DNA of 64,000 bases from Brachybacterium halotolerans (lineage in GTDB: Bacteria; Actinomycetota; Actinomycetes; Actinomycetales; Dermabacteraceae): positions 441,963 through 505,962 of the forward strand of contig NZ_JAEDAJ010000001.1 of assembly GCF_016623465.1 (NCBI RefSeq), read 5' to 3'. Made by a program: the position numbers and the translations under genes. The notes beneath the pieces were generated by a model, which had not been told where the DNA came from, made no database searches, and saw only the letters and a list, made by a program, of their open reading frames with translations. Of this stretch, positions 23,936 to 40,818 are shown one piece after another (the first letter of the stretch is position 1; each line of letters starts with the position of its first letter).

Positions 23936-24587
23936 CGGGGCGCACCAGGCCCGTCTCGTAGGCGAGGACGACCAGGCGCGCGCGATCACGGGCGCCGACC
24001 TTCTGCATGATCCGCGAGACGTGCGTCTTCGCGGTGAGCGGGGAGAGCACGAGCCTGCCGGCGATCTCCTCGTTGCTCAGCCCCTCCCCGACCAGGCGCA
24101 GCACCTCCCGTTCGCGCTCGGTGAGCTCGCCGAGCGCGGTCGGGTCCGGGCGTTCGCGCAGGCCCCCGGCCGCGCGGTCCAGGAGGAGTCGGGTGATACC
24201 GGGCGAGAGCAGCGCGCCGCCGTCGTACACGACCCGCACCGCACGGATCAGATCAGCGGGTTCGGTGTCCTTGACCAGGAAGCCCGCGGCGCCGGCGCGG
24301 ATCGCCCGCACCACGTACTCGTCGAGCTCGAAGGTCGTCACGATCACCACGCGCAGCGCGCGGAGCGCGGGATCGGCGGCGATCTGCTCCGTGGCCCAGA
24401 GCCCGTCGCCCTCCGGCATCCGGATGTCCACGAGCGCGACGTCCACCGGGGTCCGACGCAGCGCAGCGAGCAGCTCCCTGCCTCCCGCCGCCTCGAGGAC
24501 GACCTCGATGTCCTCCTCGGCATCGAGCAGGGCGCGGAAGCCGCCGCGCACGAGCTGATGGTCGTCGGCGATCGCGACGCGGATCAT
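23925..24587 (-). CDS. LuxR/NarL-family response regulator
   Basis: The 220-aa regulator has a receiver domain with acidic pocket ADDHQ (residues 7-11), phospho-acceptor Asp54 in LVDIRMPEGDG and conserved Lys in FLVKDTEP. A NarL-type helix-turn-helix follows in the C-terminal 65 residues (ELTEREREVLRLVGEGLSNE then TVKTHVSRIM-like TAKTHVSRIMQKV). It starts inside the stop of the histidine kinase gene (ATGA, 24584-24587), so the two are translationally coupled partners. Its likely binding site is the TGCTCCCGGGGGA repeat near both its own operon and the SHOCT gene. Confidence 0.92.
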   Translation of the reverse strand: MIRVAIADDHQLVRGGFRALLDAEEDIEVVLEAAGGRELLAALRRTPVDVALVDIRMPEGDGLWATEQIAADPALRALRVVIVTTFELDEYVVRAIRAGAAGFLVKDTEPADLIRAVRVVYDGGALLSPGITRLLLDRAAGGLRERPDPTALGELTEREREVLRLVGEGLSNEEIAGRLVLSPLTAKTHVSRIMQKVGARDRARLVVLAYETGLVRPGWS

Positions 24588-25789
24588 GTGTGCCCCCAGG
24601 GAAGACGCGCGGTGACGACCGTCCCGCGTCCCTGCGGACCGGGCCCCAGGGAGAGGGTGCCTCCGAGCAGCTCGGAGCGGTCCCTCATGCTGCGGATCCC
24701 CGCCCCCGGATGAGCGAGCGCGGTGCCCACGCCGTCGTCGGCGACGTCGATCCGGAGCGCGCCGCCCTCGCGCCGCAGCCGGACCTCCGCCGTCTCGGCC
24801 CCGGAGTGCCGCACCACGTTCGTGAGCGCCTCGCGGACGATGCGGACGGCAGTCGCCTGGGTGCGACCCGCCGGAGCATCCTCGGCGCGGGGCTCCGTGC
24901 CATGGGGCTCCGTGCCGAGAGGGCCCGCGCCCCCGATATCGCTGTCCAGCGAGATCGCGAGCCCGAGCCCCCGGTGCTGCTCGAGGAGCGCGGGGAGGTC
25001 CGCGAGCTGCGGCTCTGGGGTCAGCGGCGCCTCCTCTCCGCGCAGGGTCGCGAGCACCCCGCGGGCCTCCTCGAGGCCGCCGCCCGCGAGGCGGCGGATG
25101 TTCCCGAGGGATTCGCGGGCCTTCGCCGGGTCCCTGTCGAACAGGTGGAGGCCCATCCCCGCCTGCACGGAGATCTGGGAGAGCGAGTGGGAGAGGACGT
25201 CGTGCAGCTCGCGGGCGATCTGGTCGCGCTCGGCCTGCTCCGCCTCGCGTCGCCGCTGCTCGAGCAGCGCCTCCCGTCTCCGCATCCGCTCGGCGCGCGA
25301 GCGAATGCCCATGCCGACGCCGAGGCAGACGGCCAGGATCACCGTTCCGGCGATGATCCGCTGGGGTGCTCCCGAGGGCCACAGCAGCTCCGCGAGCACG
25401 ACGCCCACCGCCCAGGTCGTGCACGCCGTCGCGAGCGCCCACACGGGGGCGGCGCGCACCAGCGCGATCACGAGCGCGATGCCGAGCGCGACCGGCGGAG
25501 GGCCGAAGGGCGGCGGCAGGAACAGCAGGACGAGCGCGAGCGGCGCGATCACGATCACCGTCGGCCCGGGACGCGTCCAGATCGCGAGCAGGGCGAGAGC
25601 CGAGAGGGCCGCAGCCGCGGTCCGCGCAGCGACGAGCGCGGGGGCCGTCTCCGTCCACACGCCGATGGCGAGCGTCGGCGGCACCTGGATCAGGAGCGCG
25701 ACCAGGGCGGGGAGCAGAGCGACGACGCGCCCCGGACCCCGTCGTCCCCGGGTGCGGGGCGCGGGATCCGCCCCGTCTCTCGCGCACAT
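24584..25789 (-). CDS. DesK-like sensor histidine kinase (HisKA_3)
   Basis: The 401-aa kinase has about five to six N-terminal hydrophobic segments forming a membrane sensor without a large extracellular loop. A coiled region (RAERMRRREALLEQRRREAE) leads to the HisKA_3 dimerisation domain with His196 in ARELHDVLSHSL. The C-terminal ATPase domain has VRIVREALTNVVRHSG (N box) and DVADDGVGT (G1). The ATG at 25789 lies 6 nt after TAGCCT with no Shine-Dalgarno, so the transcript is probably leaderless. This puts an inverted repeat (25827-25860) at about -38 to -71. Confidence 0.92.
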   Translation of the reverse strand: MCARDGADPAPRTRGRRGPGRVVALLPALVALLIQVPPTLAIGVWTETAPALVAARTAAAALSALALLAIWTRPGPTVIVIAPLALVLLFLPPPFGPPPVALGIALVIALVRAAPVWALATACTTWAVGVVLAELLWPSGAPQRIIAGTVILAVCLGVGMGIRSRAERMRRREALLEQRRREAEQAERDQIARELHDVLSHSLSQISVQAGMGLHLFDRDPAKARESLGNIRRLAGGGLEEARGVLATLRGEEAPLTPEPQLADLPALLEQHRGLGLAISLDSDIGGAGPLGTEPHGTEPRAEDAPAGRTQATAVRIVREALTNVVRHSGAETAEVRLRREGGALRIDVADDGVGTALAHPGAGIRSMRDRSELLGGTLSLGPGPQGRGTVVTARLPWGHT

Positions 25790-25826
25790 GCTCGAAGGCT
25801 ACGCCGGAGCGTGCGCCGGGTCGTCC

Positions 25827-25860
25827 TCCCCCGGGAGCATGCGCCGGTGCTCCCGGGGGA
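25827..25860. promoter_or_regulatory. Inverted-repeat operator of the kinase/regulator operon
   Basis: TCCCCCGGGAGCA (25827-25839) and its exact reverse complement TGCTCCCGGGGGA (25848-25860) flank 8 bp. Relative to the predicted leaderless start at 25789 it lies at about -38 to -71, where a two-component activator would bind. The 13-bp arm recurs upstream of the SHOCT gene (23848-23863). Confidence 0.65.
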
Positions 25861-25979
25861 GCAGACCAGGCCACGAGCCGCCGGGCCGGTGCGCTCCGAT
25901 TGCCTCGCGCGGTCGCGGCGGGCTACGGTGACGCCGTGCTGACCTGTCGTTGTCGTCCCTGAGCGCCTGCGCTCGGCCC

Positions 25980-26037
25980 GAGCGCGCCCGCGCTCCCCGC
26001 CAAGCGCGCCCGCGCTCCCCGCCGAGCGCGCCCGACG
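25980..26037. repeat. 22-bp tandem repeat upstream of cysK
   Basis: Two 22-bp units (25980-26001, 26002-26023) differ by one base and are followed by a partial third copy. Each unit contains GCGCGCCCGCGCTCCCCGCC. The block ends about 65 bp before the cysK start, within its probable promoter or leader. Confidence 0.7.
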
Positions 26038-26099
26038 ATCCATCGACCACCGTGCGGCGTCGACGCCGTCCGCCGCACCCCGTCCAGAGGACACCACTC

Positions 26100-27128
26100 G
26101 TGCACTACGCCCAGTCCGCGGCCGATCTCATCGGCTCCACTCCCCTGATCCGCCTGCAGCGCGTCACCGAGGGGATCGACGCGACCGTCCTGGTCAAGGT
26201 CGAGTACTTCAACCCCGGCGGATCCTCGAAGGACCGCATCGCCCGCACCATCATCGACGCCGCCGAACGGGAGGGCCGTCTGCGCCCGGGCGGCGTGATC
26301 GTCGAGCCCACGAGCGGCAACACCGGGGTGGGCCTCGCCCTGGTCGCCCAGCAGCGTGGCTACCGGACGGTCTTCGTGGTGCCGGACAAGGTGGGCCCCG
26401 ACCGTCGCGCCGTGCTCATGGCCTACGGCGCCGAGGTCGTGGTGACGCCGGCCGCGGTGGCGAAGGAGGATCCGCGCTCCTACTACAGCGTCGCCGATCG
26501 GCTGACGCGCGAGATCCCCGGTGCCTTCCAGCCCAATCAGTTCGTGAACCAGAACGGCCCGCTCGCGCACTTCCAGACCACGGGACCGGAGGTGTGGCGC
26601 GACACGGACGGCGCGGTCACGCACTTCGTCGCCGGCATCGGCACGGGCGGCACGATCAGCGGAGCGGGACGCTTCCTCAAGGAGGCCTCCGGTGGTCGCG
26701 TGCAGGTGATCGGCGCGGATCCGGAGGGGTCGATCTACTCCGCGGACCCCGCTGATCCCGAGCAGATCCACGCGAACCTCATCGAGGGGGTGGGCGTCAC
26801 CTTCGTCCCCGAGACCTTCCACCCCGAGGTCGTCGACGGCCTCCAGCGGGTCCCCGACGCGGAGTCCTTCGCGATGGCGCGCCGCCTCGCCCGCGAGGAG
26901 GGTCTGCTGGTGGGCGGCTCGAGCGGCATGGCCGTGGTCGCCGCCCTGCGCACGGCCCATGACCTGCCGTCCGACGCGGTGGTGGTCGCCCTGCTCCCCG
27001 ATCACGGGCGCGGGTACCTCGGGAAGCTCTTCGACGACGCGTGGATGCGCGAGAACGGCTTCGAGGTCGACGAGCCGGAGTCACTGGTGCCGGCGGACGT
27101 CCTCCGGGAGCTCGATCTCGAGCAGTGA
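26100..27128 (+). CDS. cysK: Cysteine synthase / cystathionine beta-synthase-like PLP enzyme
   Basis: The 342-aa protein is a fold-type II PLP enzyme. Lys44 in NPGGSSKDRIA binds PLP, TSGNTG binds the substrate carboxylate, and GIGTGGTISGAGR holds the PLP phosphate. No C-terminal CBS domains are present. The sequence resembles the actinobacterial CBS-like cysteine synthase as much as classical CysK, so either O-acetylserine or serine plus homocysteine could be the substrate. The start is GTG at 26100; the frame is open upstream but low-complexity. A strong hairpin follows at 27190, and the integrated element begins after it. Confidence 0.9.
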   Translation: MHYAQSAADLIGSTPLIRLQRVTEGIDATVLVKVEYFNPGGSSKDRIARTIIDAAEREGRLRPGGVIVEPTSGNTGVGLALVAQQRGYRTVFVVPDKVGPDRRAVLMAYGAEVVVTPAAVAKEDPRSYYSVADRLTREIPGAFQPNQFVNQNGPLAHFQTTGPEVWRDTDGAVTHFVAGIGTGGTISGAGRFLKEASGGRVQVIGADPEGSIYSADPADPEQIHANLIEGVGVTFVPETFHPEVVDGLQRVPDAESFAMARRLAREEGLLVGGSSGMAVVAALRTAHDLPSDAVVVALLPDHGRGYLGKLFDDAWMRENGFEVDEPESLVPADVLRELDLEQ

Positions 27129-27189
27129 CGGGCCGCGGGGCCGACGGTCGACGTCCGGTTCGGCCGCCCCACGAGCGTCCTGGACACGA

Positions 27190-27221
27190 CGAAGGCCCCC
27201 ACCATTCGGTGGGGGCCTTCG
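27190..27221. terminator. Strong hairpin terminator after cysK
   Basis: A perfect 14-bp stem, CGAAGGCCCCCACC with ATTC loop and GGTGGGGGCCTTCG, lies 61 bp after the cysK stop. There is no U-run on the plus side, but the GGGGGCC-rich stem is typical of high-GC actinobacterial terminators. It probably marks the last chromosomal feature left of the inserted element. Confidence 0.8.
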
Positions 27222-27298
27222 TGACGAGTCACTGTCTCACGGTTTCTCGAGTGGACCTAGCGGCAAGCTTGTCGAAACCTGCCCCGTCGTTGGTTCGC

Positions 27299-27682
27299 AT
27301 GGGCTCGATGCACCAGTCGATTCGCGTCCGCATGCTCAATGCCCGCCGCGAGGAGCCGCTCCCGCGTCAGCTTCCTCGCGCTAGCAAAGAACTGCTGGAC
27401 GTGGCGCAGAGGCAGTACGAGGCCGGCGCCACGTTGCGAGAGACTGCCAAGGAACTCGGGATCGGTCGGGAGCGGCTGGCCTTACTGCTGCGGGACCGGG
27501 GTGTACGGATGCGGCGTGCCACACCGTCGGCGGACGATGTGCGGGAGATGGCTCGTCGCTATTCCGGTGGTGAGTCGCTCGAACGCGTGGGCAAGCGCCT
27601 CGGATTCTCACCCAGCACAGTCCGCAACCATCTCCGGTCTATCGGCGTAGTGCTGCGTGACGTGCACGGACGTGAAAGGTAA
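27299..27682 (+). CDS. Small helix-turn-helix DNA-binding protein
   Basis: The 127-aa basic protein appears to hold two helix-turn-helix units: ATLRETAKELGIGRERLALL (about residues 45-64) and ESLERVGKRLGFSPSTVRNH (about 90-109). These look like the C-terminal HTH of resolvases and of element-encoded regulators. It has no catalytic recombinase domain. It is the first gene of the inserted element and sits 60 bp before the SF1 helicase on the same strand, so it may regulate or co-function with it. ATGs at 27299 and 27308 are both possible starts. Confidence 0.68.
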   Translation: MGSMHQSIRVRMLNARREEPLPRQLPRASKELLDVAQRQYEAGATLRETAKELGIGRERLALLLRDRGVRMRRATPSADDVREMARRYSGGESLERVGKRLGFSPSTVRNHLRSIGVVLRDVHGRER

Positions 27683-27742
27683 CGAACCTCGTCGATCGCC
27701 GAGATTGGACGTCAGGCACCTGTTGCTGCTCGACCGGGCAAG

Positions 27743-30700
27743 ATGGGGACCATGGGACTGGCTCGGGTCAGAGATGAGCGGCTTCGGATTCTGTCGTTCT
27801 GGTGGATGTTGGAGTTGTTCAGCCCGCAGCAGGTGCCGGCGTTGACGCGTCGAGCGACCCGCCCGTCGGATCGTCAGGTGATCGCGTGGCAGTCCGGGGA
27901 TCCTCTCCCCTGGGATGTACTGGCTCCGCCCGAGCCGTTCCACGGGACGCGCAGGGTCTGGCGCCACACCCTGTATCTGGGCGTCTACAAGCTGGAGGCA
28001 ACCTACGAGGCGTTGGGCCGTGTGTTCGGCGAGGATCCTGACGCCTACGACAAGCGACCCGACGGTGAGAGCGCCTGTGCCGGGCTCCTGATCGATAACG
28101 AGGGTCGACTGGTCACCGATTCGGCGGTGCTGTCATCAGCGCTCTGGGCAGCTGGCCGGACACGAGATCCAGGACCGAGCAACCCGCGCTGGATGGCCGG
28201 GTTCGACGAGGCCGCGGAAGAATTCGTCGAGTCGGTTGACGCTTTTGAAGGCGCCCGCCGCGACGCCGATGGCGGAGAGCAGCCCCCGCCTTACGACTCG
28301 GACTCGCTGAACGAGTTGCTGAAGCTCTCCCATGTCGCTGCCGGAGTCGAAGGCTTCGATGACCTCGCGAACGAGCGCCTGGTGATCGAGAGTGTGGCGG
28401 TGTCGGCGCGACGGGCCGAGGACGGAACGGACACCGACTTCTTGAACAGCTTCTACCTCGACGATCTCGCGGCTGTGCGCACCCATGTCGCAGGCGGAGA
28501 TCTCGGCGCCGGCCTTGCCACATATCTCACCGGCGACCAGACACTTCCCGTGTCCGACCGCATCGATGTCGTCACGCACCCGGGCGCGATAGACGCAGGC
28601 ACCGCGATCGAGCGCCTCCCCAAGGGCCGGTGGCCGGCAAACCCGGAGCACTCGCTCGCCTTGAGCCAGCAGTTCGCTGTCAACCGCGCGCTGAACGACC
28701 TTGGGCATAGCACTGGCCTGATGGGCGTCAACGGGCCACCGGGCACGGGCAAGACGACCATGCTGCGCGACATCCTCGCCGGGAACGTCGTCGAGCGAGC
28801 CCGACGACTCGCGGCTCTGTCTCGGCCTTCGGATGCCTTCACTGAGGTCACGCACCGATGGTCCGATGGCGAAGGCCACTCCCGGATCGTTCGCCAGCTC
28901 AAACCCGAGCTGACGGGATTCGAGATGGTCGTCGCGTCGGCGAACAACGCGGCCGTCGAGAACGTCACCACAGAGATACCCGACGAGAACGCCATCAACG
29001 CGCCGTGGCGCGGCCACATCGACTACTTCGGTGATATCGCGACCAAGATCCTCCAAGACGTGGCCTCCAGCAACACCACCGGCAACGCGACACCGCCAAC
29101 AGCCTGGGGCCTCGTCGCCGCCCGACTCGGCAGAAAGAAGAACCGCTCGGCCTTCCACTCAGCGTTCTGGTTCGACGAAAAGGACCCCAAGACCAAGAAG
29201 CCTGTCGAGAACGGCGTCCCAAGGATGCAGACAAGACTGACGCAGTGGCGCGACGGCGACGCTCCCTACACGCCCTGGGCACAAGCACGCGAAGCCTTCC
29301 ACGCAGCCGAACAGCGCGTCGACGTACTCATCCGGCAACGGGCGCAGGCCCAGGATCGGCTCCGCCGAGTCCCGGAACTGGCTGAGCGTGAACGTGGTCT
29401 CGAAGCGGCCATCGATCAGGAACTACGAGGTCTGAACCGGGCCCAACACGATCTGTCCCAGCATCAACCCGTTCAGCAGCAGGCAGATGAAGCCCGCGCG
29501 CAAGCCGTCAAGAGCCACAACCGGCACCTCGCCGCCAAGCCCGGCGTGCTGGAGACGATCTTCTCCTTCGGACGAGCCGTACGAGCTTGGCGCATACGCC
29601 TCGACGACCTCGCGCGAGCACTGGACAACGCCGAGCAACACCACCGAGAAGTGCACGACCGCGGGGAACGGCTCCACGACGCCGTACAGCATGCCCGAGC
29701 ACGGCTGTCCTCAGCTCAACACGACCTGAACAGCACTCGAGATCAGCGGAGCAGACTTCAGGCTCAGTGTGCGCAGGACGAAGAACGGTTCGGTGCGGCC
29801 TATCCCGGCCCGGCATGGCAGGGTGATCAACGAGAGCTACACGCGCCCTGGCTCGACGAAGAGCTCGACAGAGCACGCTCTGACCTCTTCGTCGCCGCGC
29901 TCCAACTGCACCAAGACTTCCTCGCCAACACCGCACGCGACATGCTCAACGGCCTGCGTGCCGCCGGTGAGGTCGTCGCCGGGAACTATCCACGCGACCT
30001 CGAGCCAGAGAAGCTCCGGGCCGCCTGGCAACTGTTCTTCCTAGTCGTTCCGTTGATCTCCACAACTTTCGCCTCGGCCAGCCGGATGTTCAGCGGCATC
30101 GGCTCAGAGGCGATCGGCTGGCTGCTCATCGACGAAGCAGGCCAAGCCTCACCCCAGTACGCCGTCGGCGCGATCTGGCGCGCGCAACGCATCGTCGCAG
30201 TGGGCGACCCGCTCCAGCTCGAACCCGTTGTCACACTCCCCGAGAAGGCACAGCGCAATATCGCCAGCAGTTGCGACATCAGCACGACCTGGATCCCGCC
30301 ACGCGCTTCCGTCCAGACCCTGGCCGACCGCGTCACACCGTTCGGAACGCTGCTCGATCAAGGCGAGGACAAGGTATGGGTCAGCGCGCCGCTGCTGGTG
30401 CATCGCCGCTGTGACAACCCAATGTTCACCCTGTGCAACCAGATCGCCTACAACAACCTCATGGTCAACGGCGTCCACCGCGACCTCAACGACCCCCACG
30501 AGCGCTTCGACAGCCCGACCGGTCCGATCATCGCCGCCAGCTACTGGGCCGACGAGCCGGCCAACAGCCCAGGTAGCCATCTCCAACCAAGTCAGATCGA
30601 GCGGCTAGAGAAGGCCCTCGCCTACTTGAACGACCACGGCATCCCACCGTCGGAGGTCATCGTCATCTCCCCATTCCGAGCCGTCGCAGACCGCCTCCGC

Positions 30701-30955
30701 ACCCTCATCCCGAAATACCAGGGCCTCCAAGCCGGGACCATTCACACAGCGCAAGGACGCGAAGCCGCCGTCGTGATCCTCGTCCTCGGCGGTGACCCCA
30801 GCAAACCGGGAGCACCCGCCAACTGGGCACGGACCCCGAACCTCGTCAACGTCGCCGCCAGCCGTGCGAAACGCCGCCTCTACGTCATCGGCGATCGCGC
30901 CTTCTGGGCACGACACAACTACTTCCGAGACCTATCCAACGCCCTCCTTCAATAG
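27743..30955 (+). CDS. Large SF1 (Upf1/Dna2-like) AAA helicase, defence-type cargo candidate
   Basis: The 1070-aa protein has about 300 N-terminal residues of unrecognised sequence, then a complete SF1 helicase: Walker A GPPGTGKTTMLRD (about 330), motif II LLIDEAGQASPQ (about 793), motif III VGDPLQLEP, motif V TIHTAQGREAAVV and motif VI NVAASRAKRRLYVIGD (about 1030). A long Arg/Glu/Gln-rich coiled coil (about residues 505-690) splits the two RecA lobes, a 1B/stalk-like insertion seen in Upf1-type enzymes. No nuclease domain is obvious. It converges on the SF2 helicase across 101 bp. Such stand-alone helicases are frequent in defence islands. The start may be the second ATG (27752). Confidence 0.85.
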   Translation: MGTMGLARVRDERLRILSFWWMLELFSPQQVPALTRRATRPSDRQVIAWQSGDPLPWDVLAPPEPFHGTRRVWRHTLYLGVYKLEATYEALGRVFGEDPDAYDKRPDGESACAGLLIDNEGRLVTDSAVLSSALWAAGRTRDPGPSNPRWMAGFDEAAEEFVESVDAFEGARRDADGGEQPPPYDSDSLNELLKLSHVAAGVEGFDDLANERLVIESVAVSARRAEDGTDTDFLNSFYLDDLAAVRTHVAGGDLGAGLATYLTGDQTLPVSDRIDVVTHPGAIDAGTAIERLPKGRWPANPEHSLALSQQFAVNRALNDLGHSTGLMGVNGPPGTGKTTMLRDILAGNVVERARRLAALSRPSDAFTEVTHRWSDGEGHSRIVRQLKPELTGFEMVVASANNAAVENVTTEIPDENAINAPWRGHIDYFGDIATKILQDVASSNTTGNATPPTAWGLVAARLGRKKNRSAFHSAFWFDEKDPKTKKPVENGVPRMQTRLTQWRDGDAPYTPWAQAREAFHAAEQRVDVLIRQRAQAQDRLRRVPELAERERGLEAAIDQELRGLNRAQHDLSQHQPVQQQADEARAQAVKSHNRHLAAKPGVLETIFSFGRAVRAWRIRLDDLARALDNAEQHHREVHDRGERLHDAVQHARARLSSAQHDLNSTRDQRSRLQAQCAQDEERFGAAYPGPAWQGDQRELHAPWLDEELDRARSDLFVAALQLHQDFLANTARDMLNGLRAAGEVVAGNYPRDLEPEKLRAAWQLFFLVVPLISTTFASASRMFSGIGSEAIGWLLIDEAGQASPQYAVGAIWRAQRIVAVGDPLQLEPVVTLPEKAQRNIASSCDISTTWIPPRASVQTLADRVTPFGTLLDQGEDKVWVSAPLLVHRRCDNPMFTLCNQIAYNNLMVNGVHRDLNDPHERFDSPTGPIIAASYWADEPANSPGSHLQPSQIERLEKALAYLNDHGIPPSEVIVISPFRAVADRLRTLIPKYQGLQAGTIHTAQGREAAVVILVLGGDPSKPGAPANWARTPNLVNVAASRAKRRLYVIGDRAFWARHNYFRDLSNALLQ

Positions 30956-31056
30956 GCGCAGCCGCTCACACGCGCCCTTCCGGGCAACTTGAGCGCGCTT
31001 CCTTGCTGTCTGCCGGAGTGCGGGTGCGGACACTCCCGGACCATCGCTCTGCGCGA
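30956..31056. other. Short gap between the two convergent helicases
   Basis: Only 101 bp separate the convergent helicase genes. CCGGAGTG and CACTCCCGG around 31013-31041 can form a weak stem that might end transcription from both sides. No gene is present. Confidence 0.4.
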
Positions 31057-34000
31057 TCAGTCCGATCCGTAGACCTCAAAACCGCCTTTGGTCACGGTCT
31101 GCACATATGAGGCAGCGCCGGCGATGAGCCTTAGCTGCTCGTCACTCGCTGAACCGATGCTCAGGCCTGGCTGGACAATGATCGTCGTGAACCGCGGGAA
31201 CAGCAGACACGCTTGCTGCCTGATCCGGAAGAGCATCTCGCGATCACCGATTTCGAACGCCGTCCCTCCAAAGCGGCGCGTATATCCGACGGCCCGTCGG
31301 TCGAGGTGCTCGAGGAGTGGCAACGCTGCGTTGTCTCGCCATCGCGCGCCGCGCATCGCTTGGCCGCAGACTTCGTAGAGGTCCTTGAGGCGGGATCCCG
31401 CATCTGGTTTCGAGGAGTACTTGCAGTGCACCAGCGTGACGTGCAGGTCCCCTCCATCGACTCGGATGCCGACGAGGTCGGCTGCCTCACCCGACCTGTC
31501 ATCGTCGATGAGGACGTCAAAGGTCTGGTTCTCACCGAGGTAGCGCGCCATGAAAGCCTGGATCGAGTCGGCTCTGCGATCGGGGCCCTGCGATTCGACG
31601 GCGATGTTCACACCTCCGGCGGCCCAGTCGAGAGAACGCAGGTTGTCGCGGGGATATGGCGGAAGCTCGGTTCGGGGCGCGAGCAGCCGGTCATCGCCGG
31701 TGATCAGTCGGTCGCCGGAGAGAAGGAGCGTGGGCTTGTGGTTGTTTAACCAGGTCGACAGAGGCGCTGTCGATCCGCGCCCTCCCTCGACCGTGGCATC
31801 GTCACCCAGTGCACGGTAGTGCACACCAGTCGAACCGAACCGCCCCTCGTACGCGAGCTCCCACGTAGGTGTGACGACGGAGAAACGAAGTGGGCCGTCG
31901 ACTCCGTAATCGTCGATCCTCAATCCGGCATCGGTCAACGGAACGCCGTTGGCGTTGAAGACAACGCGTGAGGACGTTCCGGCGCCGACGTAGAGCTCCC
32001 ATGGCCACTCGACCGCGAGGAACGGGTACGGGGGCCGCTCCTTGACGTCGACAGGGATGATCATGTCGCGGAACAGCGATCGGACGTCAACAGACCTGTC
32101 CCGCAGCTTCGCTCCCTGATCGCGACACCATCGTCGCCATTCTGCAAGGTTCGACGCCGTTCGCATCGACCAGAATCTCCCGGATAGCGCCGCTGCAATC
32201 GTGACGCGCTCTCCCTCTTGAAACGCCTTGGCTGCGACGTGTGTGTTGGCCTTGTGGGTGCGCTCGGCTTCTGTCAGTGCCGTCTCGACATCGCTTCCCA
32301 CGTGCATGGAGAAGCGCTTGTCACGATCCCGGGCATCGAGTAGCCCAATGTTCGTCGGAACGAGGCGGTCGAGCTTTGCAAAGACCTTGAAGGTGTCGTA
32401 ACCGTTGACCGGCGCCGGTTCATGCCCGACCACTGCCTCGACGAGATCGTCCAGGCTGCGTTTGGTGTCCGAGCAGTGAACGTAGAGGAGCCCCTGCGTC
32501 CGATCGAGGAAGAGCACGACGAGCGTGTAATCAGTGGCTCGCAGGGATGGGATGTCACCCCAGCGGAGATCGGAGACCGTCTCGATCACGAACCAGGCGA
32601 TGGTGTCATCACGGTTGACACTAATCAGGCCGTCCAAGATGCTGTCGCCGAACACGGCACGGGCCGCCAGCGGGTCCCAGTCCACGGTCGTCGTCGCGAA
32701 GGCGCGAGCGCTCATCTTCGGTTCCAGCAGGCCAACAGGCACGTCAGGCGGATTGTCAAGGAACGAGGCCTCGAACTCGCTGATCTCGTCAGCTCGCTCG
32801 GTCGCACGCTCCGTAATGTCGCTGAGGACCTTGTCCCAGTCGGGATCCTCTCGCAGGAGAAAACGCAACGGCGAGAGCGCCTGCTTCGGATCCTGGCGGA
32901 TGAAAACGCTCGCGGTTCCGATCGGGACGGGAGATGACGTACGGGCGAGCCGGCCGATGAGCTGGACCATAGGGCTCAGGGATCGATGCGTGTCATGGAA
33001 CGCTCCGACCTTGAGCGTGGGGAGGTCGAAGCCTTCGCCCAGCATGTCGACGCAAACGATCACGCGGCTGGACCGCTCCCGCATGGCTCGGATCGCCGCG
33101 TCACGTTCGCTCGCCCGCAGCGAGTCGTAGATCACCTTCGGAGCGAACTCGGGAGCGAGTCGCGAGTACAGCGCGTGGATCTCGTCGGCCCGAGGCTTCG
33201 TCGCGACCCGAGCCAGGAGTAGGTGTTCGTGCCCGGCGTCCAGATCGCTACGGAGCCGAGACAGCGCGGCTCTGGCAAGCGCTTCGTCATCGTCATCCAG
33301 ATCAAGGACGGCCGTGAAGTCAATCGTGCTGAAGTAGCCTTCTTTCTGTGCCTCCCGAAGCGGGAAACGAAAGATCACTCGTCCCGGCAACGTCAGTCCG
33401 TCACGCCGGTAGGGGGTCGCGGTGAACAGCAGGACGGGACGCTCCCCGAAGGCGCGGATGATCTCCGTCCACGTTCGCGCTGGCGCGTGATGCGCCTCAT
33501 CGACCAGGAGGTGTGTGAACCCAGAGAAGAACGCTCGCCGCACGGCATCCTCTGACGCGTGGATCGCGTTCGGAGTCGCCACCACGACGTTGCAGGCAGC
33601 CACGAAAGCGGCCGCGTCCTGTTCGCTGTCGAATCGTCCGGCGACTCGCCCGACCCGCGGTCTCATCGCGTCCGGCCCGACGATGCCCTCTTGCTGGAGG
33701 ATGCCGAGCGTCTCGAACTTTGAGGCAATCTGCTCTCTCAGAGCCGAGGAAGGGACCACGACAAGGACGCGTTCCGGACGCTGCGCGACCAACCATGCCA
33801 CCATGGTCTCGGTCTTGCCCGTCCCCGTGGGCATCACCACGATTCCTGGCTCTGTGAGGCCCGACGACTGGTATCCGACGATGGAATGCAGCGCACCGAT
33901 CTGCGGGCGACGCAGGCTGTGCGGGCGACTGTGGGACGTGAACCCGATCGCTCCGTCGAAGGACTCCCTCACGGCATCCGCGGGTAAAGGGTGCCTCGAT

Positions 34001-34263
34001 CCCACCCAGGTGATCTCGTCGCCCGATGCGCCGTTCTCGGGAAGGACGGCGACCAGGCCTTCTTCGCGCGGTTCGTCTGGTCCTGATGCGGTCGGCCACT
34101 GTCCGTACCTGCTTCGAATGTGCGGAGCAGGTCCGTCCGCGAGGTCGAGTCCATCGTGGGCCGGGACCAGCAATTGACGGAGCGTGTTCTTCCCGATGGC
34201 CTCCGTGGTCGCCCACACGTCGCTGGTTCTCACTGCAGCCACCCTGCGGTCGCACCAGCACAC
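31057..34263 (-). CDS. SF2 DEAH helicase with a possible C-terminal nuclease domain
   Basis: The 1068-aa protein is a ResIII/UvrB-like SF2 helicase: Walker A VVMPTGTGKTETMV (about 143), DEAH box LLVDEAHHAP (about 253), motif III FTATPYRRDG and motif VI QLIGRLARTS. A long middle region is unrecognised. Near residues 920-960 is GEAADLVGIRVDGG followed by VTLVHCKYSS, which has the spacing of a PD-(D/E)xK nuclease core with His in place of the usual Glu of ExK, then DLYEVCGQAMRG. No methyltransferase or specificity gene is adjacent, so it is not a normal restriction system. The GTG at 34263 or an in-frame GTG at 34233 (behind AGGGTGG) may be the start. Confidence 0.83.
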   Translation of the reverse strand: MCWCDRRVAAVRTSDVWATTEAIGKNTLRQLLVPAHDGLDLADGPAPHIRSRYGQWPTASGPDEPREEGLVAVLPENGASGDEITWVGSRHPLPADAVRESFDGAIGFTSHSRPHSLRRPQIGALHSIVGYQSSGLTEPGIVVMPTGTGKTETMVAWLVAQRPERVLVVVPSSALREQIASKFETLGILQQEGIVGPDAMRPRVGRVAGRFDSEQDAAAFVAACNVVVATPNAIHASEDAVRRAFFSGFTHLLVDEAHHAPARTWTEIIRAFGERPVLLFTATPYRRDGLTLPGRVIFRFPLREAQKEGYFSTIDFTAVLDLDDDDEALARAALSRLRSDLDAGHEHLLLARVATKPRADEIHALYSRLAPEFAPKVIYDSLRASERDAAIRAMRERSSRVIVCVDMLGEGFDLPTLKVGAFHDTHRSLSPMVQLIGRLARTSSPVPIGTASVFIRQDPKQALSPLRFLLREDPDWDKVLSDITERATERADEISEFEASFLDNPPDVPVGLLEPKMSARAFATTTVDWDPLAARAVFGDSILDGLISVNRDDTIAWFVIETVSDLRWGDIPSLRATDYTLVVLFLDRTQGLLYVHCSDTKRSLDDLVEAVVGHEPAPVNGYDTFKVFAKLDRLVPTNIGLLDARDRDKRFSMHVGSDVETALTEAERTHKANTHVAAKAFQEGERVTIAAALSGRFWSMRTASNLAEWRRWCRDQGAKLRDRSVDVRSLFRDMIIPVDVKERPPYPFLAVEWPWELYVGAGTSSRVVFNANGVPLTDAGLRIDDYGVDGPLRFSVVTPTWELAYEGRFGSTGVHYRALGDDATVEGGRGSTAPLSTWLNNHKPTLLLSGDRLITGDDRLLAPRTELPPYPRDNLRSLDWAAGGVNIAVESQGPDRRADSIQAFMARYLGENQTFDVLIDDDRSGEAADLVGIRVDGGDLHVTLVHCKYSSKPDAGSRLKDLYEVCGQAMRGARWRDNAALPLLEHLDRRAVGYTRRFGGTAFEIGDREMLFRIRQQACLLFPRFTTIIVQPGLSIGSASDEQLRLIAGAASYVQTVTKGGFEVYGSD

Positions 34264-34553
34264 GCCTCGGAAACAGACGTGTCAACGTGGGATGGCCGTT
34301 GGCCAGATGATCTACGGAGCTTCCAACGCAGGCATGCTTCAGCGCGCTGCGCCAGGTCTGGTGTCGTCACCGGGTGCCTCCTACCGGTGACACGGTCACC
34401 TATCTGCAGATGCTCATTGAATTCATCATGCTGGACCGCACATGTTCTTCGTGAGCCGACACGCGGCCGCGCGCGAGAGGTCTATCGAGAACTCCATCGG
34501 GCTGTGGCTGCCGTTACCGGATGTACGGTCACAGGACACAGGCATGCGGGCGG
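34264..34553. other. 290-bp gap upstream of the SF2 helicase gene
   Basis: No gene is recognised. The gap must contain the SF2 helicase promoter, reading leftward, and the end of the transcript of the 178-aa gene. No clear hairpin or inverted-repeat operator was found, and base composition is clearly less G+C rich than the chromosome. Confidence 0.4.
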
Positions 34554-35090
34554 TCAGAACGGCAACGAGGCCCCCAGCGCATCGATCACCTGTCGAGCGC
34601 CCTCGGCAGCCTCCTCGGTCGCAGCCTTTCCGAGACCCGCGCTGATCGGGGCAAGCAGTCCCTTGATGAGAGTGACTCCCCGCCGCACGATGCCCTGATC
34701 GGGCTCGGACTTGACCACTTCCTGGAGGACGAGGTTGGCGTTCTCGCGGAGCTCTGCCCCGTCGGTCTCGTCAAGCTGAAAGGTCGACAGGCTCGCCAGG
34801 ATGTCGGTGAGCAGTTGCGCAAGTTGCTCGTACCCAGCGGCGACCTGCTCGCTGTGCTCCTGAACCTGCGTGACGCTCTGGTTGTCCCATGCGAGCTGGG
34901 CGTGGTCTCCGTTCACGGTGACGACTGGCCCGTTGTAGTTGTTGACTGTTGTGGCAGCCGGGAGCGAGACGACGCCGTGGTCGGCTTCCAGCGGCACCCG
35001 GACGGGGTTCTTGGCGAACTCGCGCTCGATCTCGCGCGACATCTTCCGTATGGCCTGCTTGTTGATCTTGAACCCGTTCGCCATGCTCAC
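34554..35090 (-). CDS. Conserved hypothetical protein, possible defence accessory
   Basis: The 178-aa protein has a basic N-terminus (KINKQAIRKMSREIEREF), then a central Asn/Gln/Val-rich stretch containing TVNNYNGPVVTVNGDHAQLA and WDNQSVTQVQ. The alternating NxxVxGDxxQ pattern suggests a short beta-solenoid like those in AbiTii-type proteins. A helical C-terminus ends in a Gly/Ala-rich amphipathic segment (GLLAPISAGLGKAA). The GTG at 35090 follows AGGA by 6 nt and is preferred over the ATG 6 bp later. It reads the same way as the SF2 helicase, 290 bp upstream of it. I recognise no function. Confidence 0.65.
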   Translation of the reverse strand: MSMANGFKINKQAIRKMSREIEREFAKNPVRVPLEADHGVVSLPAATTVNNYNGPVVTVNGDHAQLAWDNQSVTQVQEHSEQVAAGYEQLAQLLTDILASLSTFQLDETDGAELRENANLVLQEVVKSEPDQGIVRRGVTLIKGLLAPISAGLGKAATEEAAEGARQVIDALGASLPF

Positions 35091-35310
35091 ACCACTTCCT
35101 GCTCCGGAGGATCGCCTGCACCAAGGATCGCATGCAGCACAGACATCGGAGCGCCGTTCGAGGCCTTCCCTCGTCGCTCTGACAGGAGTATTTTGATGAG
35201 TAGGCGGCCTCTACCTACGTGACCCACTGCCGGATGCAGTGGGATGACCAGTCGGCCTCGGTCGGAGCGGTCCTTCTTGATTCCTTGTCACCGGAGACGA
35301 GGAGAGGACT

Positions 35311-35661
35311 GTGCTCATGTTCCGCCTGATCTGGATCGGCAGCGTCTACACCCACTACTTCGTGCGTCGATACATGCCCACCAACATCCTGCTGGACCTG
35401 ATCCGTACGCGCCGTGGGCTGAAGTGGGGCCTGCCGGCGATGCTGCTGGCCATCCCGTATCTGTACGTGGCGAGCTTGCTGACGGTGCTGATCGAGGACG
35501 GCGCACCGGACTGGCTGCACGTGCTGGTGGTGTTGTGCATCTGGAACGCGATGAAGTTCGCGAGCATGGGCCCGGTCAGCGTCGTCCTGCTGCTGCGGGC
35601 GCGCGCCATCGAGTGGGGCGAGCGTTGTAGGTCTCGCCGCTCCGTGTCCGCGGTCGCCTGA
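35311..35661 (+). CDS. Small membrane protein of conjugative elements
   Basis: The 116-aa protein has two or three hydrophobic segments (LPAMLLAIPYLYVASLLTVL and WLHVLVVLCIWNAMKFASM) and the conserved-looking opening FRLIWIGSVYTHYFVRRYMP. Similar small proteins occur in actinobacterial integrative elements beside DprA and relaxase genes; the role is unknown. The GTG at 35311 has an excellent GGAGAGG site 4-6 nt upstream. It is followed 69 bp later by the DprA gene on the same strand. Confidence 0.7.
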   Translation: MLMFRLIWIGSVYTHYFVRRYMPTNILLDLIRTRRGLKWGLPAMLLAIPYLYVASLLTVLIEDGAPDWLHVLVVLCIWNAMKFASMGPVSVVLLLRARAIEWGERCRSRRSVSAVA

Positions 35662-35730
35662 CCGCACCCTGTTGCGTGAGGGCGGTTGTGCACCTTCTCG
35701 GCGTCATCTGACCGAGAAGGAGGCCTCGTC

Positions 35731-36735
35731 ATGGCCGGTATCGCTGACCTGGCAACTGATGAATGCCACGCGCGGATGCTGTTGTCGATCCTGTCCGGAC
35801 CCGACGACGCCACCACTGGGCACATCCTTGCCCGTGAGGGTGGGGTCGAGACGATCCGCCGGCTCGATGATGACGGCGCGGTGCCGGGGCTGAATCGTGT
35901 GGACGCGCGGGTCTGGCGTGATCGCCTCGCGTTGCCGCGCCGACTGGAAAATGTGGCCGGGCGGATGCGCGACATCGAGCAGTCCGGGATCGCGACGGTG
36001 ATTCCGGGTGATGCGCACTGGCCGCAGGCGCTGAACGATCTGGGCGACCGTGCCCCGTACGTGCTGTGGGCGCGCGGTGCGACGTCGTTCCTGGCCCGGC
36101 CGACCGCCGATCTGGTGACGGTCACTGGTGCTCGGGCGGCGACGGCGTATGGCGAGCAGGTCGCCTGCGAAATCGCTGGCGACCTCTCGCACGGTGAGCG
36201 GGTCGTGGTGGCCGGCGGCGCATACGGGGTCGAGGGTGCCTCTCACCGGGCAGCGCTCGCGTCTGGTGGCGACACGATCGCGGTGCTCGCCAACGGGGTC
36301 GACCGCCCATACCCGACCGGTCATCGCGAACTGCTTGATCGAATCGCAGATGTTGGCCTGTTGGTCAGTGAGGTGCCGCCGGGGTCGGTACCGACGCGGC
36401 AGCGGTTCCTGGCGCGCGGCCGGTTGATGGCCGCACTCTCTGGGAGCACCGTTGTGGTCGAGGCGGGCGTACGTTCAGGCGCGCTGCATACGGCGGTCGA
36501 GGCGCAGCGTCTGGGCCGAAGCGTCGGCGCGGTCCCGGGGCCGGTGACCTCGGTGACCAGCAGCGGCCCGCACATGCTGCTGCGTAACGGCACCGCCCAG
36601 CTCGTCACCGACGGCAGCGACGTCGAGGACCTGATCAACCACGCGCCAGAACGCGGCGCCGATCGCGCAGCGCTGGGTCCGGAGTTCGCACACCGCCCGG
36701 TGCCGTCAACGGATAAACCGACGCGGTCGATGTAG
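35731..36735 (+). CDS. DprA/Smf-like DNA-processing protein, element-encoded
   Basis: The 334-aa protein has the DprA Rossmann domain: VTVTGARAATAYGEQVA, VVVAGGAYGVEGASHRAAL (the GGAxGID-type loop) and TIAVLANGVDRPYP, then RGRLMAALSGSTVVVEAGVRSGALHTA. DprA loads RecA on incoming single-stranded DNA during transformation. Element-borne copies may protect or process single-stranded transfer DNA. The C-terminal winged helix of chromosomal DprA is reduced. The ATG at 35731 has an AAGGAGG site; a longer upstream frame is not needed. It is likely co-transcribed with the small membrane protein. Confidence 0.85.
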   Translation: MAGIADLATDECHARMLLSILSGPDDATTGHILAREGGVETIRRLDDDGAVPGLNRVDARVWRDRLALPRRLENVAGRMRDIEQSGIATVIPGDAHWPQALNDLGDRAPYVLWARGATSFLARPTADLVTVTGARAATAYGEQVACEIAGDLSHGERVVVAGGAYGVEGASHRAALASGGDTIAVLANGVDRPYPTGHRELLDRIADVGLLVSEVPPGSVPTRQRFLARGRLMAALSGSTVVVEAGVRSGALHTAVEAQRLGRSVGAVPGPVTSVTSSGPHMLLRNGTAQLVTDGSDVEDLINHAPERGADRAALGPEFAHRPVPSTDKPTRSM

Positions 36736-36761
36736 CCCCCCGGTCGCCGTCCTCTTCGTGC

Positions 36762-36793
36762 AAGGGCCTCGCATCCCGTGATGCAAGGCCCTT
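36762..36793. terminator. Bidirectional hairpin between dprA-like gene and relaxase remnant
   Basis: AAGGGCCT..GCATC pairs with GATGC-AAGGCCCTT around a short CCGT loop, with one unpaired base in the left arm. It lies 27 bp after the plus-strand DprA stop and 25 bp after the minus-strand relaxase stop, so it suits both. TTCCTCTTGTCC follows on the plus strand. Confidence 0.7.
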
Positions 36794-36817
36794 CCTCTTG
36801 TCCTCTGTCCGATCTGG

Positions 36818-38371
36818 TCATAGTTCGAGCTCTCGGGCGAGGCGCTGAGTGGGCCGCTGCTGGTCTCGGTGCTGCGGGCCGGTGAGTGCGCGGAATGCTG
36901 CGTCTGCACGGGCACGATCGATCTTCTGCGCGGTCCCCTCCGGTATCGGGCCGAGCGGACTCCCGTCGGTGATCGCGTAGCGATCGCGGTACGCGGCGAT
37001 GATCCGGGCATGTAGATGCCACCGCTGCCGCCCACGGGCATCTGTCGGCGGTGTGCCGAGCGGGCGTGTCCAGGGTTCGTCGGCGCGGATCGCTGTGTCG
37101 AGGACGGCGTCGGCGCGGGCTTCGATCAGGTCACGACGCTCGTCCAATGCCTGACGCATGTCTGCGGCGACCTGGCCGTCGACTCGTGGGATCAGGCCAA
37201 CAATCAGGCGTGCTGGTCTACGGGTACGGCCGGAACCGGCCGGGCGCGCGGTGGCGTGAGCGAGGCGGTGGTGGATGATCGAGGCGATGTCGTCGGCGTC
37301 CTCGAGTCCACGGGCTTGGATGAGGCGTGGCAGGAGCTGGTCGACGTCGTGATGGTTGGCCTCGGTCCGTCGCAGATCCGCGGTCAGTGCACCGAATGCC
37401 TCGGAGTCGATGACGGTCTCGGCTTGCTCGTCGGTGAGCCCGCTGGTGCGGATGAGCTGAGCCCAGCGGTCGTGTTGGGCGGCTTGGGCGATGGTCTCGT
37501 ACTCGGCGGCGAGCTGTGCGATTGAGCCCCAGGCCTCCTGCTCGGCGGTGATGGTCTCGTGCGCGGAGAGCTCTGCCCCGACGTGCTGCAGCACTCCGTA
37601 GAGCACGGTGCGGGCGGTCGCGTCGGGGTTGTCTGACGGGTGCGGCGCGGCGTGGTCGTCGGGGCGGTTCAGCACCACGTAGGCGCGGTTGGAGTCGCGG
37701 CCGCGGGTCATGGCTACATAGAAGTTCTCCCGTGTTGTCGTCGGCTCGACCAGCACATGCGCAGTGTCGGTGGTGATGCCCTGCGCCCGATGCGCTGTCA
37801 CCGCGTACCCGAGATCGACATGCGCGGCAGCGTAGGCAGCCGGAAGGACGAGGGGGCCGCCGAACCGGCGCCCGGTCTTGCGGATGGTGATGGAGCCGTC
37901 GTCGCGGACGGCGGTGATGGTCCAGCGTTCGCCGTTGCGGATCCAGTCCTTCCCGTTCCGCAGCCGGCGGTCGTTTCGGCGAGTGATGATCGTGTCCCCG
38001 ACACCGGCCCGGTTGCCATCGTTCAGGTCGACCTCGCGGCCTGGGCGGAGGGTGCCGTCGAGGATGAGGTCGGCACGGGCTCGGTTGTTCAGCTCGGTGA
38101 CGTCGTCGCGGGATTCCGCGATCAGCACCGACACGTGCCCCGCGGCCCCGTCAGCGCGCCATGCCATGTAGGCGGCATCGATCATCGGTTCGGCATCGCC
38201 GTCGGTGATGCGGTCGTGATCGAGGTAGGTGTCGATCACCTCGGTGCGTCCGTGCCGCAGTGCCAGGGATGCGGTCTTCCCCCACCCATGGGTGAACCGG
38301 TGCACGTCGATGAGCTCCGGGGCATCGTCGCGGTCGGAGACGAGGAGGTTGAACGCTCCCCCGGCATCCAC
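36818..38371 (-). pseudogene. TraA/MobF-type relaxase, C-terminal fragment
   Basis: About 518 codons of the C-terminal part of a conjugative relaxase-helicase remain. RecD-like helicase motifs are visible: GYAVTAHRAQGITTDTAHV (motif V) and NFYVAMTRGRDSNRAYVV (motif VI), followed by the long charged tail typical of TraA. The N-terminal relaxase domain with the catalytic Tyr and the first Walker A are missing. The reading frame runs into the left end of the IS3 element at 38372, so the first part was lost there. It is transcribed toward the DprA gene. The fragment cannot nick DNA. Confidence 0.85.
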
Positions 38372-38419
38372 TGAAGCGCCCTGGGTTCCGTTCCGAGTCT
38401 CAGCAAGGAGAATCGGAGC

Positions 38420-38734
38420 ATGCCCAAGAAGTTCAGTCCAGAGCTGCGTGACCGTGCCGTGCGCATGGTCTACGACCGGCAGGCACTCGAAGGTGGCCCC
38501 AGATCGGTGTCGATCCGTGCGGTCGCACCTCAACTCGGTGTTGGCATGGAGACGCTGAGGATCTGGTGCAACCGCTACGGGCCGGTCGAACCCTCTGCCG
38601 GCCCCGGGGAGTCGCTCGAGGAGGAGAACCGCCGGCTACGTCGAGAGCTCGCCGAGTCCCGGCGGGCCAACGAGATCCTCAAGGCCGCGTCCGTGTTTTT
38701 CGCCAAGGAACTCGACCACCCCACGACGAATTGA
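38420..38734 (+). CDS. IS3-family transposase OrfA (HTH protein)
   Basis: The 104-aa protein starts MPKKFSPELRDRAVRMVYDR and has an IS3 OrfA helix-turn-helix plus a C-terminal leucine-zipper-like helix (LEEENRRLRRELAESRRAN). It binds the inverted repeats and joins OrfB by -1 frameshifting to form the full transposase. A GTTTTTC run near 38694-38700 is the only slip-like site seen and is not an ideal heptamer. The ATG is 48 bp inside the left end. Confidence 0.92.
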   Translation: MPKKFSPELRDRAVRMVYDRQALEGGPRSVSIRAVAPQLGVGMETLRIWCNRYGPVEPSAGPGESLEEENRRLRRELAESRRANEILKAASVFFAKELDHPTTN

Positions 38735-39645
38735 TCGCCTTCATCGACAGGCATCGCGATCGCTTCGGGGTCGAGGCCATCTGCCGCATCCTGGGCGCGA
38801 CAGAACGTGGATTCCTCACCTCTCGCGGCTACCGCGCCGCGAAGCAGCGCCCGGCATCGGCCAGGGCGATTCGTGACGAGGTGCTCGTCGAAGAGATCCG
38901 TCGGATTCATGCCGAGAACTACGGCGTCTACGGGTATCGGAAGATGCATCACGCGATGCGCCGTGCCGGATGGGACATCGGCCGCGACCAGACCGCTCGG
39001 CTGATGAAAGCTGCTGGTCTGTGCGGGATGCGCCGTGGCCGAAAGGTGCTCACGACGAGCTCTGCTGGTGGCCCGGACCTTCGTCCTGATCTGGTCGAGC
39101 GGGACTTCACGGCTGCCGGACCGAATCGGCTCTGGGTCGCTGACATCACTTACGTCCGGATCCCGTCCGGGTTCTGCTACACCGCGTTCATCACGGACGT
39201 CTTCACGCGAAGGATCGTCGGCTGGGCGGTGGCCACCACCCTCCACACCGAGGCGCTGCCACTGCAGGCTCTCGAGCAGGCCCTCCAGACCACCCCGGCA
39301 GAAGCGTCCCGGACTGGGCTGATCCATCACAGCGACAGAGGCAGCAACTACGTCTCGTTGGCTTACTCCGATGCGCTGATCACTGCCGGGGTCCAGGCCT
39401 CGGTCGGACCAGTCGGGGACAGCTACGACAACGCCTTGGCCGAGACCGTCAATGGTCTCTACAAAGCCGAGCTCATCCACCGACGCCGCACCTGGCCCTC
39501 AGCTGCCGCAGTCGAGATCGCCACCCTGGACTGGGTCAACTGGTGGAACACGAAGCGCCTTCACGAAGCCCTCGACTATCGCACCCCGGCCGAACTCGAA
39601 GCGGCCTACACTCGCCCCACGACGACCGCACCCGCGACCGTCTAA
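38731..39645 (+). CDS. IS3-family transposase OrfB (DDE integrase)
   Basis: About 304 residues in the -1 frame relative to OrfA. The DDE triad is visible: WVADITYV (D), HHSDRGSNYVS (D) and YDNALAETVNGLYKAELIH (E). The HTH_21 segment YGVYGYRKMHHAM is also present. The TTG at 38731 overlaps the OrfA stop, so either reinitiation or frameshifting from upstream (the frame stays open from 38566) would make the product. All catalytic residues are intact, so the IS may still be active. Confidence 0.92.
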   Translation: MIAFIDRHRDRFGVEAICRILGATERGFLTSRGYRAAKQRPASARAIRDEVLVEEIRRIHAENYGVYGYRKMHHAMRRAGWDIGRDQTARLMKAAGLCGMRRGRKVLTTSSAGGPDLRPDLVERDFTAAGPNRLWVADITYVRIPSGFCYTAFITDVFTRRIVGWAVATTLHTEALPLQALEQALQTTPAEASRTGLIHHSDRGSNYVSLAYSDALITAGVQASVGPVGDSYDNALAETVNGLYKAELIHRRRTWPSAAAVEIATLDWVNWWNTKRLHEALDYRTPAELEAAYTRPTTTAPATV

Positions 39646-39672
39646 CCACGGAACGAAACCCAGTGCGCTTCA

Positions 39673-40754
39673 ACATCCGCTCCACGGATGCGAACGGCCG
39701 AGAAGTGCGCGACGTGGAGCTCGACACGGACCGAGCCGACTTGATCCGGTTCGCGTTCACCGCCTACGCCACCGGGGACTGGTCGCTGTCCAAGCTCGCC
39801 CGCGAGCTGGAGACCCGCGGTCTCACCACCAGGCCGACACCGTCGTATCCGGCAAAGCCGGTCACGACGAAGCTGCTGCACAAGATCCTCACGAACCCCT
39901 ACTACCAGGGCATCGTCACGTTCGGCGAGGTCACCTACCCCGGCTCGCATGAGCCGCTCGTGACCCCGGAGACGTTCGACCAGGTCCAGACGATCCTCCA
40001 GCAGAACAACATCGTCGGCGACAAGCCGCAGAAGTACGACCACTACCTCAAAGGCTCGATCTACTGCGCCTGCGGGAAACGGCTCATGTTCGAGCGGCCC
40101 CGCAACCATCAAGGCGTCACCTACGACTACTTCACCTGCACCGGCCGACGCTTCAAACGCAACACCTGCCAGCGCACCGCGATCCTCGTCCACCGCGTCG
40201 AAACCAGCATCGAGAACCGCTATGCCAACGTCTCCATCACCGAGGACGAGGGCAAGCGGATCAAGGACGTGCTCGGGCAAGTGTTCGATTCCCTGGCCGC
40301 GTCGACCAGTGACGAGCGGAAGCTGCTCACCACGCAGAAGACGAAGCTCGAAGCCGAGCAGGTCAAGCTCCTCCAAGCCCACTACGCGGACGCGATCCCC
40401 ATCGACCTGCTCAAGACCGAGCAAGACCGCATCCGCGCCAGCCTGGCCCAGATCACCAGACGACTCGACACCCTCGACACGACTCACGAGAACGCGAAGA
40501 TCGGACTCGACGGCATCCTCGGGCTCCTCACCGACCTCAGCGACGTCTACGCCAAGGCCGAGCCCGCCGAACGACGCATGCTCAACAGGGCACTGTTCGA
40601 CCGCATCACTATCGATGCCGACGACCACGCCGGTCTCAGCCCGAACCACACGATCGCTACGATCCTCGCCGCCAAGACCAGCGGACACAACGAAAGAACC
40701 TTGCCCCGCAATGATGCGGGCAAGGTTCGAACGTTTCCGATTGGGTGGAGCTAA
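39673..40754 (+). pseudogene. Large serine recombinase, N-terminally truncated
   Basis: About 360 codons remain of a large serine recombinase (an integrase of mobile elements). Visible are the Recombinase domain (TGDWSLSKLARELETRGLTT and LHKILTNPYYQGIVTFGEV), the zinc ribbon (YCACGKRLMF ... CTGRRFKRNTC) and the coiled-coil arm (about 40300-40560). The N-terminal resolvase domain with the catalytic Ser and Arg residues is gone, cut at the right end of the IS at 39672. A GTG inside the IS end (39663) could start a fragment. The stop codon lies within the tRNA-Ala 3' end, so the last 9 bp overlap the tRNA gene. Confidence 0.88.
40697..40727. terminator. Hairpin at the right end of the element
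   Basis: AACCTTGC(C)CCGCA pairs with TGCGGGCAAGGTT around ATGA, with one bulged C. It lies in the last codons of the recombinase fragment, 19 bp before the tRNA. It may be a terminator for the tRNA reading leftward or for the recombinase, or part of the attachment site; the sequence does not decide. Confidence 0.5.
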
Positions 40755-40818
40755 GGGGATTCGAACCCCTGACCTCTTCCATGCCATGGAAGCGCGCTAC
40801 CAACTGCGCCATAGCCCC
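40746..40818 (-). tRNA. tRNA-Ala (anticodon GGC)
   Basis: The minus-strand 73-nt sequence begins GGGGCTATGGCGCAGTTGG and folds as a standard cloverleaf. The acceptor pairs GGGGCTA with TAGCTCC (one G-U) plus discriminator A. The anticodon stem is CTTCC/GGAAG with loop ATGGCAT, giving anticodon GGC for GCC alanine codons. The T-arm is GGTTCGAATCC. CCA is not encoded. The element's recombinase fragment ends within its 3' end, which marks it as the integration target. Confidence 0.97.

Follow-up and report, generated by a model that had tools for sequence, protein, structure and literature searches.

T4SS-type ICEs of Actinobacteria (PMC3218068) are the closest described counterparts of the element analysed here, and its intact relatives share with them a MobF relaxase-helicase, flanking att sites, and VirD4/TraG and VirB4-like (SCO6880) genes placed between the relaxase and recombinase genes. 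The family differs in using a large serine recombinase at the 3' end of a tRNA gene, an arrangement that has been called rare (PMC3218068). ICEs with a common attB are also known to accumulate side by side in tandem arrays (SXT/R391, cited in PMC3218068; Fean5518/Fean5534; Sav3708/Sav3728). In addition, deletions associated with IS150 in the LTEE lacked duplications in 14 of 14 cases and were explained as adjacent deletions that followed an earlier insertion; insertion of an IS at a break has been proposed for such deletions as well (PMC11708052). Literature searches for the ICE family considered here, whether by site or by genus, yielded nothing.

The locus that we describe lies in a 64,000-nucleotide stretch of the genome of Brachybacterium halotolerans (hereafter the window). 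Compared with the T4SS-type ICEs, the window copy appears to be a fused remnant without transfer genes; compared with known tandem arrays, it would keep only the outer ends of a putative tandem, joined through an IS. It resembles the IS150 deletions in that a single IS occupies the joint of a large deletion without a target duplication, and differs from them in that the order of events is deduced from the final state, with recombination between two IS copies being possible. Tandem ICE accretion (PMC3218068), IS-associated deletion (PMC11708052) and the decay of ICEs are each known already, and the window adds a new instance in which they are combined.

Results

An ICE remnant at tRNA-Ala(GGC) contains a complete IS3-family element

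The remnant occupies positions 27251–40753 of the window (13.5 kb) and sits in the 3' end of a tRNA-Ala(GGC) gene. It is bounded by att repeats with the core GTGGA(C/G)CTA, at 27251 and 40745, and its ends are corroborated by the empty site in two genomes (G012 and G034), in which window sequence 24001–27259 continues straight into 40745 onward with an overlap of GTGGA(C/G)CTA. Its features are listed here, with the two ICE types defined further below.

27251–27286, plus strand: attL, core GTGGA(C)CTA and type-2 left ICE arm GTGGACCTAGCGGCAAGCTTGTCGAAACCTGCCCCG (empty sites; arm scoring)
27332–27682, plus strand: small HTH protein beside attL, a left-end gene conserved in both ICE types (HTH_38; tblastn)
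27743–30955, plus strand: cargo, MkoC-like SF1 helicase (Pfam AAA_11/AAA_12; PADLOC MkoC, E=3e-60)
31057–34263, minus strand: cargo, ResIII/DEAD SF2 helicase of 1068 aa (Pfam)
34554–35090, minus strand: cargo, 178-aa protein (weak PDC-M14B match)
35311–35661, plus strand: 116-aa ICE backbone protein, type-2-like (identity to relatives)
35686–36735, plus strand: DprA-like ICE backbone protein, type-2-like (identity to relatives)
36818–38371, minus strand: C-terminal 517 aa of a MobF relaxase-helicase, type 2 (profile search and relatives)
38372–39672, plus strand: IS3-family insertion sequence, 1301 bp, complete, single copy in the genome, without target duplication
38420–38734, plus strand: IS3 orfA, open (matches the IS3 family)
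38566–39645, plus strand: open frame containing IS3 orfB with the rve integrase core (matches the IS3 family)
39673–40754, plus strand: C-terminal 359 aa of a large serine recombinase, type 1 (profile search and relatives)
40690–40753, plus strand: attR, type-1 right ICE arm and core GTGGA(G)CTA (empty sites; arm alignment)
40744–40818, minus strand: tRNA-Ala(GGC), the 3' end of which is the integration site

The left-end HTH protein has tblastn matches of 48–55% in G013, G035, G043 and G069, a comparison that did not discriminate between type 1 and type 2. Among the cargo genes, the MkoC-like SF1 helicase is a possible defence gene, its PADLOC match covering only part of the MkoC profile. The two large helicases (27743–34263) might also form a defence pair.

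An IS3 element had been recognized in the initial annotation between truncated genes for a relaxase on the minus strand and a serine recombinase on the plus strand, and alignment to the copies of 20 relatives now places its boundaries at 38372 and 39672. The element has the termini TGAAGCGC...GCGCTTCA and terminal inverted repeats of the TG...CA kind (TGAAGCGCCCTGGGTT / TGAAGCGCACTGGGTT), and OrfA/OrfB match the IS3 transposase model (NF033516 transpos_IS3, E=9.5e-85) as well as PF00665 and PF13276. It is flanked by CCAC on the left and ACAT on the right, so that there is no 3- or 4-bp duplication, in agreement with the annotation. Copies of this same IS in relatives have a 3–4 bp duplication in 8 of 20 cases (1.1 expected from shuffling). 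The IS type therefore does make target duplications, many of its copies are without one, and, because only 8 of the 20 have one, the missing duplication alone is weak evidence. Nor does it bear decisively on membership of the IS3 family, since a deletion joint does not preserve such a duplication. Separately, the right terminal repeat (39658–39672; CCAGTGCG versus CCAGGGCG) contains, at position 9 from the tip, a base that is unique among the copies compared and that might weaken this end of the IS.

The IS marks a large deletion

Both genes that abut the IS are fragments that extend into longer proteins in relatives. The MobF relaxase-helicases of relatives have about 1190–1224 residues, and the window fragment is without the N-terminal 665–690 aa or so, including the relaxase domain and Walker A; the N-terminal TrwC domain of a functional T4SS-type ICE is thus not retained. 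The recombinase fragment lacks about 200 N-terminal aa including the catalytic domain and is not an intact integrase. The earlier statement that both genes are cut exactly at the IS ends holds to within 2–3 bp and not to the base: the breakpoints lie at 38371–38374 and 39670–39673, and they are ambiguous because native DNA and the IS tip have TC/TCA in common. On the recombinase side the shared sequence is the tip TCA (almost all close relatives have CTCAAC there); on the relaxase side it is TC(N). We considered whether the IS targets sequences resembling its inverted repeat, as the TCA match at both joints could suggest; duplication-bearing copies elsewhere show, by eye, no such preference, and the match is left as chance or microhomology.

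When the missing DNA was counted against intact relatives, a check proposed in the initial annotation, the two cut points proved to be 8.5 kb apart in G069, about 20.6 kb in G043, 27.6 kb in G013, 32.7 kb in G049 and 42 kb in G035. The interval in G013 encodes TraG/VirD4, SCO6880/VirB4-like, M23 peptidase, ParB-like and primase proteins. A search of the whole assembly of the window genome (G000) gave no match elsewhere to the N-terminal half of the relaxase, a query that found matches in 9 of 13 genomes in a control, and neither TraG (T4CP) nor the SCO6880/VirB4-like protein of functional T4SS-type ICEs was found in that assembly. Matches to related recombinases in the genome comprise the window fragment and one 35% remnant elsewhere, and no other. 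This remnant, a second serine recombinase (L199, L243; G000:C1:680535-681302), is degenerate, with one stop, and lies near a tRNA-Arg(CCG).

These data bear on two other ways of producing such a joint. Inversion or translocation was rejected, the missing genes not being found in the genome by searches of which the relaxase query was backed by the control. Misassembly around a repeated IS would be conceivable in a draft assembly of 24 contigs; against it, the search for further IS copies suggested by the annotation returned none, the single copy lies in the middle of a 967-kb contig, and no IS sequence was found at contig ends when all 24 contigs were searched. The lost genes are, moreover, missing from the entire assembly, and both flanks fit the chromosome at a single tRNA-Ala locus, so that misassembly was set aside as very unlikely. 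With a single-copy IS and with the relaxase half and the TraG and SCO6880/VirB4-like genes absent, a true deletion is favoured over a simple insertion, a misassembly or an inversion, as first proposed: the truncated flanking genes lie far apart in relatives, and the DNA between them is absent, as in a large IS-associated deletion. The exact left junction occurs in the window genome alone among the matches listed from 396 genomes of the order, and the order-wide pattern search thus gave no second genome with it among those matches. Matches with two mismatches look like chance, a reversed-pattern control being equally frequent.

The claim that the event removed the genes for excision and transfer is likewise borne out, in that no relaxase domain, transfer genes or recombinase catalytic domain were found. 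Because these are missing, neither self-transfer nor self-excision of the remnant would be expected. The deletion may also have fixed the cargo in place.

The two sides of the IS have different ICE affinities

From relatives of both proteins we assembled 15 ICEs with a relaxase and a recombinase gene on one contig. Trees of the two proteins give the same two groups, each with support of 100/100: type 1 (G013, G047, G048, G049, G050, G052, G053, G055 and G066) and type 2 (G009, G035, G043, G059, G061 and G069). Relaxase and recombinase types agree in 15 of 15 intact ICEs, a set that includes near-copies and represents about 8 independent lineages, and the window holds the sole mixed element; the G009 pairing, which extends over 88 kb, is the one of lowest certainty, and for G043 a partial recombinase was used. 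The type of traG agrees with that of the recombinase in the clear cases, in both types. Backbone proteins of the window side with its relaxase: the 116-aa protein is 66–79% identical to type 2 versus about 50% in type-1 G013, and the DprA-like protein 62–68% to type 2 versus 54–57% to type 1 over comparable lengths.

The attachment arms can be typed in the same way. Inside attL, type-2 elements have the left arm GTGGACCTAGCGGGAGGCTTGTCGAAACTTGCCCCG and type-1 elements GTGGAGGTAGCGCGACAGTGTTCGAACCTTGCCCC, and this arm matches the recombinase type in 12 of the 12 ICEs for which a left end was found (G049 and G066 were left out, their left ends not having been found in the fetched stretches). The attL arm of the window scores 60 against the type-2 consensus and 28 against type 1. 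The attR arm has a global score of 41 against type-1 G013 and 21 against type-2 G035, with its last 10 bp before the core fitting neither type well. Because the arms adjoin in the excised circle, and given the way in which serine integrases use attP, a working ICE should carry both arms of one type. Judged by this sequence typing, then, the DNA on the two sides of the IS is from different ICE lineages, type 2 on the left (attL arm, dprA-like gene, relaxase) and type 1 on the right (recombinase, attR arm). The idea of one ICE that lost its middle accordingly survives as to the deletion and is probably wrong as to the single ICE.

A tandem of two ICEs is the probable ancestor

ICEs of both types are found at tRNA-Ala; the GGC gene is the target of type 1 in G013 and of type 2 in G009 and G035. 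Two Brevibacterium genomes contain junctions between types (R2|L1; G053 at 822857/822905 and G052 at 391815/391863), in which a type-2 right arm is joined to a type-1 left arm and is followed by a type-1 ICE that ends at tRNA-Ala. This is the order deduced for the window, and the left member of these arrays is already a remnant. Internal att junctions like these, also present inside ICE remnants at L101 and L105, are a feature shared with known tandem ICE arrays.

We consider it probable that two neighbouring ICEs at one tRNA-Ala(GGC) gene were fused by a deletion associated with the IS. The ICEs, both of the T4SS type and related but distinct, would have been lodged one after the other in the 3' end of this gene, with type 2 on the left and type 1 on the right, beside the tRNA. 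The deletion would have ended in the relaxase gene of the left ICE and in the recombinase gene of the right one, removing all the intervening DNA, the internal att junction with it, and leaving a single copy of the IS3 element where the two sides meet. The left ICE would have contributed its left end and cargo, the right ICE its right end, and the outer att arms would accordingly differ in type, so that a single step explains the mixed ends. For two full-length ICEs, the loss would amount to between about 44 kb (9.7 from G069 and 34.6 from G013) and about 156 kb (89 from G009 and 67 from G053), and to less if one or the other had been shortened beforehand, like the left member of the G053 tandem. 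No tandem predecessor was found in any genome of the same species or genus (Brachybacterium), and it is from the present arrangement that we infer both the former tandem and the role of the IS transposase as maker of the deletion.

A less probable course of events starts from a single ICE that was already mosaic, with a type-2 left part and a type-1 integration module, and that lost a middle of roughly 8.5–42 kb by an IS3-associated deletion. A single element would then suffice, and ICEs exchange modules, extensive exchanges having been reported (PMC3218068); the mixed attR arm of L086 suggests that mosaics may occur. (In L086, a contig of a Janibacter MAG, the attachment arm reads type 2 and then type 1 near position 4630, as a natural mosaic or a chimeric contig would.) An exchanged integration module should, however, bring the recombinase together with both att arms, because these are contiguous in the excised circle, and a type-2 attL arm with a type-1 recombinase and attR is seen in 0 of the 12 ICEs whose left end is known. 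Relaxase/recombinase mixtures are likewise found in 0 of 15 pairs, and traG follows the recombinase in type wherever the typing is clear. We therefore retain the fusion of two tandem ICEs as the preferred reading.

Our searches also brought up other altered members of the family. Degraded ones occur at L248 (Actinomyces oris NZ_CP116225), L116 and L105:8870-10969, where C-terminal pieces of the relaxase lie near pieces of the recombinase, with an att arm between them in L105. At L241:1962-3572 (G053) and L240:2599-4167 (G039), inserts of 19 kb and 10 kb interrupt the ICE relaxase gene at the same P-loop codons; they have one edge in common and a serine recombinase that is 93% identical, and they have the appearance of an integrating element that targets the relaxase genes of ICEs.

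Routes by which the IS may have made the joint

For the molecular step, our first choice, by a narrow preference, is an adjacent deletion made by the transposase after a single IS insertion. Somewhat less probable, and compatible with either ancestor, is homologous recombination between a pair of IS3 copies in direct repeat, each of the cut genes having held one. It would leave one IS copy without a matching duplication, as is observed, and fits the joint equally well; the IS is also multi-copy in relatives, with five full-length copies in G023. It requires, on the other hand, two independent insertions in direct orientation, and a second copy is absent from the genome. Divergence along the IS is even and shows no trace of two parents, though identical parents would leave none; a search for IS halves from two diverged parents accordingly found no shift in divergence. 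Capture of an IS at a break comes third and seems improbable.

Discussion

Already at the sequence level, the locus presents an ICE that has been disarmed with its cargo kept, one IS joint having removed the genes for transfer and excision. Typing of the att arms offers an easy way to recognize islands in which two elements at the same site have been fused. It is tempting, at the level of a speculation, to see here a recurrent route: two ICE types might gather at tRNA-Ala and then be trimmed by IS activity, yielding fixed islands whose att arms do not match and which can be excised by neither integrase, so that cargo resembling defence genes might be kept in the chromosome. Should hybrid att arms prevent excision in trans, fusions of this kind would turn mobile elements into fixed islands with no way back.
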